Below, one piece after another: positions 54,261 to 60,118 of a stretch of DNA of 64,000 nucleotides (positions within the stretch are counted from its first letter, which is position 1; every line of letters begins with the position of its first letter). The notes under the pieces are model-generated. The model saw only the letters and a program-made list of their open reading frames with translations. It made no database searches and had not been told where the DNA came from. The translations under genes and the position numbers were made by a program. The stretch is from Fischerella sp. PCC 9605 (lineage in GTDB: Bacteria > Cyanobacteriota > Cyanobacteriia > Cyanobacteriales > Nostocaceae): contig NZ_KI912152.1 in assembly GCF_000517105.1 (NCBI RefSeq), forward strand, positions 62,001-126,000. Direction: 5' to 3'.

Positions 54261-55350
54261 TTTTGACTACAGTTATTACCGAGCGAGTTACTATTAAAAA
54301 ATTAGCACTATTTGAGTGTTTATACTTATTGATGGCTCTTGCTCGCTTTGATTACCAGCACTACCTTAGCGTGTTTGAACGATTTTGTAGTATTTTAGTA
54401 GCTCTATCGAAATACATAGCACCGATCGCTACTATCATCAACAGACAACAAGACGCTATCTCAACTCCCTTCGCAAGAGGGAACGAAGGGAGCAGGCAAC
54501 GGGCAACAGTAGTATCTTCCCAGTAAGGTGAGCAGCATAGAGTCTTCCACCAACCTGCTACCTGTGCTGGGAAGATGTGCGCTAACAGTTGAGAAACCTC
54601 CCTCAAAAATATCTGCATTAAACAAAAAGCAAACCAAAGCATCATCAACACAAATGCTTTTAGCATCTGCAACCTAGCAGCACAACACAAGGCCTTCTGC
54701 TAGCAATCGTGTTGAAACCAGAGCAGTTGGTAAACTTTGCCTCAAACAGAACCTAGCTACTACATAATGCGAAACGCTGCTTCCTAGTGAAGCGCTGCCT
54801 TATTCAATGGCTTGTCCTTTGTAGCATCCACGCAGGTCGGGAGTTGGTCAGGCGCAGTAAGCGCCCGGTAGGGCGTTGCCCCTTCCACGAGGGATTTTGA
54901 ATGAGTTGAACGGCTCTTTCTACAACGCTTGGTACACCCAAGGGCGCACTGCCTCATAAATATAAGCCGCAAAGCAACTTCGGAATTGCTCAACCCCATA
55001 GGAGTTTTGGGCGTGGAGATTTTGGATTGTGCCCAAGGGCGATCGCCAATTAACTCAACTGCTATTTTGTCAAAATCATCCTCTCACAATCAGCTGCGAT
55101 CGCCTACCTGTAATTCTCGCCTGTGTTCAATTTACTCACAGACACAGTAGAGATAGAGAACACAGCAGCTGACGATTGCAGCCTGGAGGGGACAAACCGA
55201 TCAGGCGTAGAGGTTGTTCGCTTCACGGCGGAATGTGCGATCGCTACCTGTGGCCAAATCACAAGTTTAGCCATTGAGGGCAAAATAAAATCTGTGGTGT
55301 AAGCTATTAATCAGCAAGTGCGGCTCGTTCTTCGCAGGAGCCTCTAGAAA
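54261..55350. other. gene-poor stretch, no supported gene
   Basis: Several short frames (such as 54361-54690, minus) have no ribosome binding site and no recognisable domain. The region holds HIP1 sites near 55040, 55095 and 55237, and repeat-like words (GCGCCCGGTAGGGCGTTGCC near 54862). It ends at the presumed upstream flank of the group II intron. Confidence 0.45.
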
Positions 55351-55908
55351 CTAGAGGGATATGGCTAAGGTACATTTTGAAAACCATTTTTAAATGTATA
55401 ACTGTTCTTCTGATGTAGGTGAGCTAAGTAACCTAGAACGGCAAGCCCTACCCTTGAACAGACAAGTGACTCTCTATCTGCCTACGCCGAACGGACTCGG
55501 AAAACCGAAAGGTCAGCCGCAGAGCGAAGCTGGGAACAGGGCGCAATCAGTTGAAAATAAGCAGGTAACAACACTGGCGCTAACGAGGAGATGGCATGGG
55601 TAAACAAGTCCTAGAAAAGTGTCTTATCAATAAGCTACAACCTGAATAACAAATGTAGACTTCATCCTCTACACTCTCACAGCAATTTTTGCTGGTTAGC
55701 TGTAATCTCCGAGAGGAGGATAGGCAAAATGGACTGCTCTAAACCATCAAAACAATCAAAAGAACGGAACGAGTAAAAACGGTGTAAGGGTCTGGGAAAA
55801 AAGGTCGAAAACCCCAGTAGGTACGACGAGATACAGAACTCCCTTACAACGGGTAAGATGCGGCGTAACTGCTGCAAGGTATTCAGAGAACGCAATTTGG
55901 AGTAGAGC

Positions 55909-56477
55909 ATGATTAGGCACAGCAAGAATGCTAGTGAATCTTGGAAATCATTACCCTGGAAGAAATTCCGAGGGAACCTTTTCCGCCTACAAAGAAGAGT
56001 GTTTAAAGCTGTTCGAGTTGGCAACACGCGTAAGGCTCGTCAATTACAAAAGCTTATCCTGAAATCTCGCGCAGCTAGGTTGCTGGCGATTCGTCAAGTA
56101 ACACAGCTAAATGCTGGTAAAAAGACCGCAGGAATAGATGGTAAAACCGCCTTAACTCACAAGGAGAGATTTCACCTTGAACTGTTATTAAGACAGTCGA
56201 ACTGGTATCACAATAAGCTCAGACTGATACCAATACCTAAGAAAGATGGTTCCATCAGATACCTGAAAGTCCCTACTATTGCGGACAGAGCTTGGCAATG
56301 CCTAGCAAAACTCGCCTTAGAACCAGCACACGAAGCAACTTTCCATGCAAATAGCTACGGATTCAGAACCGGGCGCTCTACCCATGATGCTCAAAGGCAA
56401 ATCTTTGAAAATCTCAAAAGTCAAGTCAGAGGCATCAACAAAAGAATCCTTGAGTTAGACATAGAACGCTGTTTTGA
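55909..56477 (+). pseudogene. ltrA: group II intron reverse transcriptase/maturase, 5' part
   Basis: The N-terminal RT region: W-K-S-L-P-W-K-K-F, V-T-Q-L-N-A-G-K-K-T-A-G-I-D-G-K, L-R-L-I-P-I-P-K-K-D-G-S-I-R-Y-L-K-V-P-T, A-N-S-Y-G-F-R-T-G-R-S and L-E-L-D-I-E-R-C-F-D (RT blocks 0-3). It stops being RT-like right after C-F-D, where D-R-I is expected, exactly at the insertion point (56477). The continuation is at 58956. Confidence 0.8.
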
Positions 56478-58957
56478 TTGGGCATCTTGATACTCCTTTC
56501 AAAAACGCAAGTTCTGGAGTTCTCCAGCTTTGAGCTTTTGGAATTGTAAGAGTGTATCGGGAAGGTTAGGAAACAGATAAAGCCCGGTTGATTCATCCTT
56601 GCTAATGGCGATCGTTCCGTTATGAATGCGATCGTAGATCCAGTGGGGTGAAAGTTCTAAAGACTGGGCAACTTGAGGAACCGTAAGATAACCCGAAATC
56701 TCGCGGGGATGAGACTGGCTACGGTTTTGAAAAATATGATGTTTAAGCCGGATAGTTTTGGACTGTACTGGGCAGGAGAGTTTTGCATAGTGGCGATCGA
56801 TAACCTTGTGCCGTCAGTTTGTTGAGCGATAACTTGGTCATCAATACTTTGTTGGCCTCAAACTAACAACCTGAGTTTCCAATTCCTGGGCATTGGTGAG
56901 TTCAGCCAATGAACCAACTGGGATTGGCAGGTCCAACATTAGTAGTGTCACCACCTTTCCAAATAATCCGAGTGCGAACTGTATCACGTGCAACACGATG
57001 AATGACGACCTTATCAATGAGGCAGCGTAGCAGAGATTTTTTTTGCACTTGTGTCAAGGTGCCACTGTGCCAAAGTTCAGGGAGCCTTTGTCCAATGTTA
57101 ATAAAAGCAGTTTTGAGTTCTTTTGGGTAGGTGATCTACTGTTTGAGGCTGCTGACGTTGAGCATAGTTTTCTTGGGCAAGTTTTAGTTCGCGTAAAGCG
57201 TTTTCCCAACGCTGTTCTAGTTCGGCCGCTACCAATCGGTTATCCGGGTCAACCCGGTTAAACTGTCTTTCTGCTAGTGCTACTTGATACTGTAAACGTT
57301 GTATTTTGTTGAGAGTGCGCTCGTTCCACTGTCTCTTGAGACTGCTGTTGGGTTTTGACAGCTTTGTGATAAGCATCTAGCTCTACAACTGACAAAGCTT
57401 CTAAAAAGGCATTGACTACGTACTCATCAATTGCATCAGCAGGAATATACTGACAAACAGGCACACGATACTGCTGCCGTAAGGAGTTACAAATATAGCG
57501 GGTTGCGCCTTTGTACTGGACAACCATCTTGTGACCACATTCACCACAGTAAACTATCCCATTGCAGTAATGCTGCACCAGGGCGAGGGATACCACGAGT
57601 TTTATTGCGGTCATACTCAGCATAATTATCCATAAGCTGTGCCTGATTACGCTCGGTAGGTTTGCCAACTGATGTAAGCTGGATATACGTCATTGACTCG
57701 GATTTTCCATTCGGCCATTGGCAATTGCTTTTTGTTGTGGCTGATTTGAAACCAAACCACGTTTGAGAGTACGTGTACGTCCATATACAAATGCACCAGC
57801 GTAGGCAGGATTTTTCAGAATTGAGATGATACTTGCCACGCTAGGCTTGCGCCAGAAAAAATCACCAAAGCGATTTCTCCGTGGAAGCAACAGCCCTTCA
57901 CTGTTGAACGTCTGCAACACTTTGGAAGCTGACTTACGTTGCCCAAAAATCTCAAACACTAAGTTAATTTCGGTTAATCACCTCACGATTTGGGTCTTTC
58001 TGCACCACTCCCAGTTCATCACGAACCAAACCCACAGGTAAGGTGAGTGCCAGTTCACCACGCCTGGCTTTGCTAAGAATCCCAGCACTTAAGCGGGAAC
58101 GAATCGTATGCAACTCTACTTCGGAAATTTTGTCCTTTGAGTCCCAACAATAATCGACCATTGGCACTACTTGGATCATAAACCCCATCTCTGTCAGCAA
58201 TCAAACAACCTCTGTAACCACACAAGTCCAAGCAAGGGGAACCAATCTGAGCAATTACGTGACAGGCGAGTAACATCATAAGAGAGGATAATCCCTACTA
58301 ATCCTAAAGTTACCTGGGCTAACAGTTCTTTAAAGCCTGGTCGCTGTTCTGCGGCTGCGCGCGGTGAATTACACCGTTTGATCAGTGTCAATTACCCTCA
58401 ATGTTTATTATCCGACCAGCCCAGTTCTATAGCTCGCTGACGCAGAGCGTATTGCAGACGCAAACTCTCCTGATTGCTGATTAATTGATGTGGGGTAGAC
58501 TGACGAATGTAGATTATCGCTTTGCGGTTCAGGTGTTGGAGTGTTACTAGCTCTGAGGTACTCATAAATTACCTCCTGGCAGACGGTTTGTAGTTCGTCT
58601 GTGATTACTTCTGGAGTGCTGGGTGAGGCGTTCCCAGATCTCACGGGGTGGGATTGACAATAAACCTCACAGTTGTTTTGGCTAAGGTGACTAACTCAGT
58701 CACACTCTCTCTAATGTGAGCTTAGTACGTAAATACACTGTTTGGGAGATGCTAATTGGGTTGCTGATAAAGGAATGCGTAAGCGCATATGACCTCGATA
58801 GGCTACTACCGCATGACCCTCACCACTTGGCGGGGTTGATATGGATATCACTGCAAACCTTCGCCCAAATAGTGGGTGCATCACATCAGTTACTTCTATG
58901 TCAGTTAAGTTTGCTGATGGGTTCTTGAGATGGGCATTAAGTAATGGTTTCGTTAGA
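56478..58957 (-). mobile_element. 2480-bp serine-recombinase element inserted in the maturase
   Basis: Taking out 56478-58957 restores T-G-T-T-T-T-G-A-C-C-G-T-A-T-A-A-A-C-C-A, reading C-F-D-R-I-N-H, the conserved RT sequence. Both edges share the dinucleotide GA (56476-56477 and 58956-58957), as expected for the 2-bp crossover of a serine recombinase. The only identifiable gene inside is the recombinase relic. About 390 bp upstream of it hold no gene. Confidence 0.7.
56499..58564 (-). pseudogene. large serine recombinase, several frameshifts
   Basis: The start is clear: ATG at 58564 after GGAGGTAATTT. The frames in turn give I-I-Y-I-R-Q-S-T-P-H-Q-L-I (catalytic Ser), I-L-S-Y-D-V-T-R-L-S-R-N-C-S-D-W (resolvase core), T-I-R-S-R-L-S-A-G-I-L-S-K-A-R-R-G-E (helix E), Y-A-G-A-F-V-Y-G-R (recombinase domain), C-G-E-C-G-H-K-M with Y-I-C-N (zinc ribbon), a coiled coil, and a C-terminal HTH (L-T-V-P-Q-V-A-Q-S-L-E-L-S-P-H-W-I-Y-D-R-I) ending at the TGA at 56499-56501. 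The order is that of large serine recombinases of transposons and phages. At least four frame breaks show decay. Confidence 0.75.
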
Positions 58958-59992
58958 CCGTATAAACCACAACACCATCATGGAAAACCTCATCGCCCCG
59001 CAATGGTTAAAACTAGGTATATTCCATGCCTTAAGGCTGGAATAAACCCTGAGTTCCCAGAACAAGGAACATGTCAAGGGGGTGTGGTTAGTCCAATATT
59101 AGCTAACATCGCACTCAATGGGATTGAAGCTATACATAGGTGTAAAAACCAAGACCCAAGAACATTAGACCCATCCGTGAGATACGCGGATGATATAGTG
59201 TTCTTTCTAAGACCAGAAGATGATGAGAAACAAATACTCGACACAATCAGCCAATTCTTAGCAGAAAGAGGATTAAAGGTAAGTGAGAAAAAGACAAAGC
59301 TAACCGCCTCGACAGATGGGTTTGACTTTCTAGGTTGGCACTTCAAAGTACAGCAAAACGGAAAGCTTAGATGTGTTCCCTCAGTGGATAACTACAAAGC
59401 TTTTCGCAAGAAGGTCAAGAAAATCGTCAATAGCTCGAAGTATGGTGCCAAGGTGAAGGCTGCAAAGTTAGCACCAATAGTAAGAGGCTGGAGGAATTAC
59501 CACAAGTTCTGTAAGATGGATGGCTCACGGTTCTCTCTGTGGCATCTTAATCACAGAACATTTAAGGTATTCAACAAGGAAACCAAACAGGATAGGCAAT
59601 CAACCGAAAAACTTGTCAAGCAAGCATTCCCATCGGTTCCTTACTCTGAAAACCGTCACGTCAAAGTCAAAGGAGATAAATCCCCCTACGATGGAGACTT
59701 AGTGTATTGGAGCGAACGTAACAGTAAACTATATGATGGCAGAACCTCAAAATTACTAAAGAAGCAAAACCATACGTGTGGTCACTGTGGACTGAAGTTA
59801 ACTTCTCAAGAGAAGGTACACCTACACCACATTGACGATAATCACAACAACTGGAAGGACAAAAACCTAATGGTAGTCCATGAAAGTTGCCATGATTACA
59901 TCCACATCAGCAAAAGGGAAAGGGAACTACGTTCTATAACGCTAGGGCGTCGGGAAGTAACCGAGGAGTATCTAGAAAATAATCCTTGGTGA
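58956..59992 (+). pseudogene. ltrA: group II intron reverse transcriptase/maturase, 3' part
   Basis: The frame resumes with D-R-I-N-H-N-T-I-M-E-N-L-I-A-P-Q-W-L-K-L-G-I-F-H, loses one base near 59022, and continues C-L-K-A-G-I-N-P-E-F-P-E-Q-G-T-C-Q-G-G-V-V-S-P, V-R-Y-A-D-D-I-V-F-F (catalytic Y-A-D-D), the maturase domain X (W-R-N-Y-H-K-F) and a C-terminal HNH endonuclease (C-G-H-C-G-L, H-L-H-H-I-D-D-N, N-L-M-V-V-H-E-S-C-H). All catalytic blocks survive, so only the insertion and one frameshift inactivate it. Confidence 0.8.
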
Positions 59993-60040
59993 AGAAAAGC
60001 CGACCGTTGCTACGGTACAAACCTTAACCCTAAGAACATC

Positions 60041-60118
60041 GGAAGCTGGATGCACCGAAAGGCGCACGTCCAGATTTAACAGAGAGGGGCGAGAGGTAAT
60101 ACTCTCCCTCGACTCTAC
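60041..60118 (+). ncRNA. domain V and VI of the group II intron RNA
   Basis: AGCTGGATGCACCGAAAGGC followed by GCACGTCCAG folds into the hairpin with a GAAA loop characteristic of domain V. The next stretch (GAGAGGGGCGAG to CTCCCTCGACTC) forms a domain VI-like hairpin with an unpaired A (in GGTAATACT) as branch candidate. The RNA end is placed at CTAC. Confidence 0.6.

Follow-up and report, generated by a model that had tools for sequence, protein, structure and literature searches.

Large serine recombinase elements at a conserved codon of group II intron reverse transcriptases

The window analysed here, a 64,000-nucleotide stretch of the 8.08-Mb genome of the cyanobacterium Fischerella sp. 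PCC 9605, carries on its plus strand a group II intron (55318..60118) whose reverse transcriptase (RT) gene is interrupted by a 2,480-bp large serine recombinase (LSR) element. The GTGCG-type 5' start of the intron is approximate, having been placed by eye from the sequence, and position 60118 marks the end of domain V, not the 3' end of the intron. One group II intron RT is divided between the open reading frames 55909-56490 and 58841-59992. The N-terminal part of the RT (55909..56474, plus strand) matches RVT_N (2.4e-30), positions 1-80 of RVT_1 and the first part of TIGR04416, its last letters being the TT core within the F codon of a C-F-D motif. The C-terminal part (58955..59992, plus strand) contains the remainder of RVT_1 (111-205), the maturase domain GIIM and an HNH-like end. 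Domain V follows on the same strand (60041..60118; RF00029, 46.6 bits, E 5.3e-06) and completes, together with RVT_1 and GIIM, the combination of RT, maturase domain and domain V that characterizes a group II intron. Elsewhere in the window, a glutamine riboswitch (RF01739) lies on the minus strand at 1562-1622.

Between the RT halves, and antisense to them, lies an LSR gene (56499..58565, minus strand; Pfam Resolvase, Recombinase and Zn_ribbon_recom) that in the window copy is broken into several frames. A small ORF overlaps the start of this gene (58408..58644, minus strand), and upstream lies the region of a further ORF of about 110 aa (58600..58945, minus strand), interrupted in the window copy and weakly DUF5372-like at a level below the curated cut-off. 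The same order of ~110-aa ORF, small overlapping ORF and LSR is kept in relatives, and the upstream ORF is a candidate accessory or directionality factor, judged by its position only. Two other copies in the genome, L002 and L003, encode an intact LSR of 681 aa. The resolvase (PF00239, 8.6e-22), recombinase (PF07508, 3e-16) and zinc-ribbon (PF13408, 2.5e-10) domains of an LSR are all present, and the catalytic serine of the YxRQS motif is invariant in 11 LSRs. A PDB sequence search gave one weak resolvase-domain match, and phage records yielded no relative at 1e-30. An IS607-type small serine transposon was rejected on the size of the recombinase and on the lack of a TnpB-like ORF in the element.

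The original prediction, made from the window alone, had described the recombinase as decayed, which now appears doubtful. Compared with the intact copy, the window gene shows 19 insertion events, 2 deletions and 23 substitutions, with most insertions repeating the neighbouring base, and L004, L005 and L007 show 1, 2 and 6 insertion events, respectively, and no substitutions except one N. Differences between copies thus consist mainly of single-base insertions, and because this pattern is the one expected of failed polishing in repeats, we do not take decay as established; the window copy may nevertheless be genuinely decayed.

The ends of the element were set independently by comparing the other full-length copies of the same genome and were fixed further by empty sites in relatives. 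They place the element, to which no strand is assigned, at 56475..58954, a length of 2,480 bp in which the right TT is counted. Copy comparison reads the left junction as host sequence ending in TT followed by TGATTGGGCATCTTGATACTCC, and the right junction as AATGGTTTCGTT followed by host sequence. Only the dinucleotide TT, found here at 56473..56474 and 58953..58954 (both plus strand), recurs at the two ends of every copy. The letters GA, earlier taken to be shared by the two ends, prove to be a coincidence of the window site: in-register GA is absent from the right junctions of L005, L006, L007 and L010, and GA was therefore rejected as a universal core.

Searching with the joined-flank DNA recovered intact relatives of the window intron. 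The joined flanks align to these relatives, for example G276, straight across the junction with no gap there, and the insertion was therefore clean. The empty site of G276 lies in an open RT of 545 aa (protein ...ELDIEKCFDRINH...; junction TGCTTCGACAGAATAAATCAC). Insertion was thus conservative, as is characteristic of an LSR: TT in all copies and colinear empty sites indicate a 2-bp shared core and no longer target duplication. The RT halves, the colinear empty sites and the copy-defined ends together confirm that a serine recombinase element lies precisely inside a group II intron RT. The accompanying claim that the host could be rebuilt perfectly stands insofar as the RT is continuous at the junction in alignment, and fails in two particulars. 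If TT is taken as the core, the codon restored at the junction is TTA (Leu), one base away from the TTC or TTT (Phe) of relatives; separately, one base is missing near 59025 relative to G276, which puts the right half out of frame, so that the rebuilt RT is colinear yet not a single open frame. At the right end of the element, the window (58939-58955), L009 and L071 carry ATG GTT TCG TT joined in frame to the RT, whose C-terminal part could thereby start with M-V-S-F-D in these three cases.

Read from search matches, the genome holds about 15 copies of the element, 10 of them full length (the query counted) and several partial; in a search of the insert against the genome, the other full-length copies are 96-98% identical to the query. 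Two of the 12 copies with both flanks readable lie clearly in RTs, namely the window copy and L009, which occupies the same codon of a second RT (joined flanks VLDADISNCFDSLDHSILLDTL) and whose precise removal leaves that RT in frame. Both group II RTs of the genome that match the C-F-D pattern are already occupied. The remaining copies sit at degenerate TT sites with little in common beyond TT: the secondary-site motif carries weak information beyond the core (9.8 bits; random sets average 7.6, and 2.5% of them attain the observed value), and against the RT motif the majority of these sites score much as any TT site does. The flanks of L010 and L012 resemble the two sides of an IS110-type transposase, and these copies are perhaps a recombined pair. 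At G000:C11:206353-207148 (L017, L177), a left element end beside a dehydrogenase-like gene is followed by Ns and then by an L009-like RT C-terminal part, an arrangement due either to assembly error or to recombination between copies. An RT gene beside a Cas1-like ORF at G000:C9:623903 (L170) contains neither the C-F-D motif nor an element.

In all, 13 RT loci split at the same Phe codon (C-F-D) were found, distributed over Cyanobacteria, Proteobacteria and Chloroflexota, and the proposal that relatives of the recombinase be sought in RT genes at this codon was thus answered in the affirmative. In G386, an element with 89% DNA identity splits its RT there (ELDIEKC-F-DRINHSAI). Within the Nostocales the codon is also occupied in Anabaena azotica FACHB-119, Calothrix PCC 7103, Fischerella muscicola, Desmonostoc muscorum and Nostoc FACHB-973, and beyond this order in Nodosilinea nodulosa, two Proteobacteria MAGs, Ktedonospora formicarum (Chloroflexota) and a plasmid of Microvirga ossetica; at the Calothrix, Desmonostoc and Nodosilinea loci, a single junction is resolved to the base. 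Orientation is identical at 12 of the 13 loci, and opposite, at the same codon, in one Proteobacteria MAG (L095). The L095 junction lies in a TTCGA context that is also common to the Microvirga copies, and the core may differ from TT in these lineages. Another Microvirga copy, identical to the one in the RT, sits among TRAP-transporter genes, and a relative at 57% lies in a prophage-like region, adjoining a capsid-like gene. A phylum-wide sample under a strict cut-off added just one more genome. The suggestion of a nested parasite exploiting a site present in many intron copies is borne out by the 13 loci in a restricted form: because most genome copies and one Microvirga copy lie outside RTs, targeting is preferential and not exclusive.

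Could these insertions be those of a random, low-specificity LSR transposon, seen in RTs since it is harmless there and its copies survive? The prevalence of copies outside RTs in this genome and the poverty of the secondary sites beyond TT would agree with such behaviour, and it has precedent in the multi-targeting LSRs (the TndX-like clade, Cp36), which use many sites per genome and for one of which a TT core has been reported (Durrant et al. 2022, PMC10083194). Survival cannot explain, however, why insertions in 13 RT genes should share the codon and the base within it, and those in 12 of them the orientation as well, when the RT gene has many TT sites, and we consider this explanation very improbable. 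The present element shares with the multi-targeting LSRs (PMC10083194) the LSR as mobility enzyme, the many sites per genome and the TT core, and differs from them by its preferred conserved RT motif. DUF4368, present in 63% of the TndX-like clade (PMC10083194), is absent from the Pfam matches up to E = 1, a point on which the recombinase departs from the TndX-like multi-targeting enzymes.

Another possibility is that the common codon reflects common descent, a single old insertion into an intron having been followed by joint spread through intron mobility. Some pairs are indeed alike in both components, such as G386 and Nostoc FACHB-973 (LSR 94%, RT 86%). Joint spread is contradicted, however, by elements about 90% or more identical lying in RTs that are 28-47% identical: LSRs with approximately 89-92% identity are often found in RTs of only such similarity (window and Anabaena, L009 and Fischerella, window and Fischerella). 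Two unrelated RT subfamilies have been struck in this one genome, where the element DNA of the window and of L009 is about 98% identical (via their match to the same query) and the RTs are 41-47% identical. The same element also occurs outside introns. On the mismatch between LSR and RT identities we reject joint spread as very improbable; near-identical elements in divergent RTs must therefore have entered different introns separately, each at the same place. In the LSR tree, built with FastTree only and with the source genome represented by the intact L002, itself outside RTs, a single clade (support 99) gathers 11 of the 12 rows with the label RT-A, and with them the identical Microvirga copy at the non-RT site.

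A second LSR clade, about 34% identical to the window LSR, is inserted at another RT codon, (I/V)-P-T-x-x-D-R, with an apparent shared core CC. Its members occur in many Nostocales, and a related clade is found in Ktedonospora, Singulisphaera and a Methylococcaceae genome. Four RTs, those of G386, Calothrix, Fischerella and Ktedonospora, hold both elements; the loci L070 (G386:C1:651000-664000), L072, L073 and L097 present a single RT gene with two different LSR elements at two conserved codons. The G000:C10:287901 region (L178) contains a fragment of an RT close to a remnant that is similar to the C-terminal part of LSRs of the second clade. On a Methylococcaceae contig (L168), an RT fragment lies between two LSRs, the one on the F-D side falling outside the RT-A clade, and a third LSR lineage may thus use the F-D codon. 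A sister clade of the window LSR's own clade, mostly alphaproteobacterial, abuts or splits the tnpB gene of IS66 at 18 of the 43 loci examined, a count that reflects proximity and not base-level junctions; the LSRs adjoining or inside tnpB are L100, L102-L106, L108-L111, L113, L115, L126, L129 and L211-L214. Given the second RT-codon clade and the IS66 sister clade, the lineage therefore repeatedly enters other mobile elements.

Serine-recombinase interruption elements are known in cyanobacteria (PMC4874684), which raises the question of a developmentally excised element like the XisF-driven fdxN element of heterocyst-forming species. Both split a coding gene precisely, XisF is the best NCBIfam match of the LSR, and the restoration of the L009 frame by exact removal would suit such a role. 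The match scores 99.7 bits, however, against an equivalog cut-off of 375 (NF041201), and membership of XisF was rejected. The element is also much smaller than the XisF/fdxN elements, its 2.48 kb apparently holding no other recognizable genes such as xisH or xisI: among the Pfam and NCBIfam matches, none of the three ORFs seen is recognized as XisH or XisI. It is multi-copy, targets an intron RT and has relatives far outside cyanobacteria, in bacteria without heterocysts, and the cyanobacterial survey (PMC4874684) does not name RTs. Developmental excision is in our view very improbable. Other known systems offer partial likenesses. As in the site-specific LSRs sharing a prolyl isomerase site (PMC10083194), related recombinases converge on one conserved coding position; here, however, the gene that is hit is itself part of a mobile element, and use of secondary sites is frequent. 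Nesting of one mobile element in another, with limited harm to the cell, is also known from twintrons and from introns inside mobile elements (PMC4649490), with the difference that the present guest is a DNA recombinase element at a fixed site in the intron protein gene and not a ribozyme. The main texts of PMC10083194 and PMC4874684 name no group II intron or RT target, and searches of the open-access literature found no description of an LSR niche in group II intron RTs; since subscription papers and preprints lay outside this scope, we regard the novelty of the niche as provisional.

What mechanism could bring an element repeatedly to one codon of its host? It is very probably a minimal integrative element whose LSR prefers DNA that encodes (C)F-D-R-I-N-H, a conserved motif of group II intron RTs, and integrates at a TT within the Phe codon. 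At the level of sequence, the record is one of exact junctions, of many unrelated RT genes hit at a common codon, of independent insertion time and again, and of spread to secondary TT sites, with related recombinase lineages at another RT codon. Judging from the junctions, the LSR would catalyse attP x attB integration, with attP about GGTTTCGTT.TGATTGGGCATC, and its conservation and the many copies in which it occurs would make the RT motif the favoured attB. A site inside the intron ORF would be harmless to the bacterium, as it would leave the RNA with the intron. The intron would lose the function of its own RT upon insertion and regain it upon exact excision. On a broader interpretation we are evenly divided: an LSR lineage specialized on mobile elements, with the F-D codon clade spread across phyla, others at the P-T codon and a sister clade at IS66 tnpB, for which the intron would be a multi-copy safe harbour and insertion and excision would switch mobility off and on.

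The arrangement would represent natural site-specific hyperparasitism, in which a conserved motif of one element's enzyme serves as the attachment site of another, at two codons and through different recombinase lineages. LSRs whose attachment sites are set by a conserved protein motif may find use in DNA integration, and the question of whether DNA parasites restrain group II introns becomes testable.
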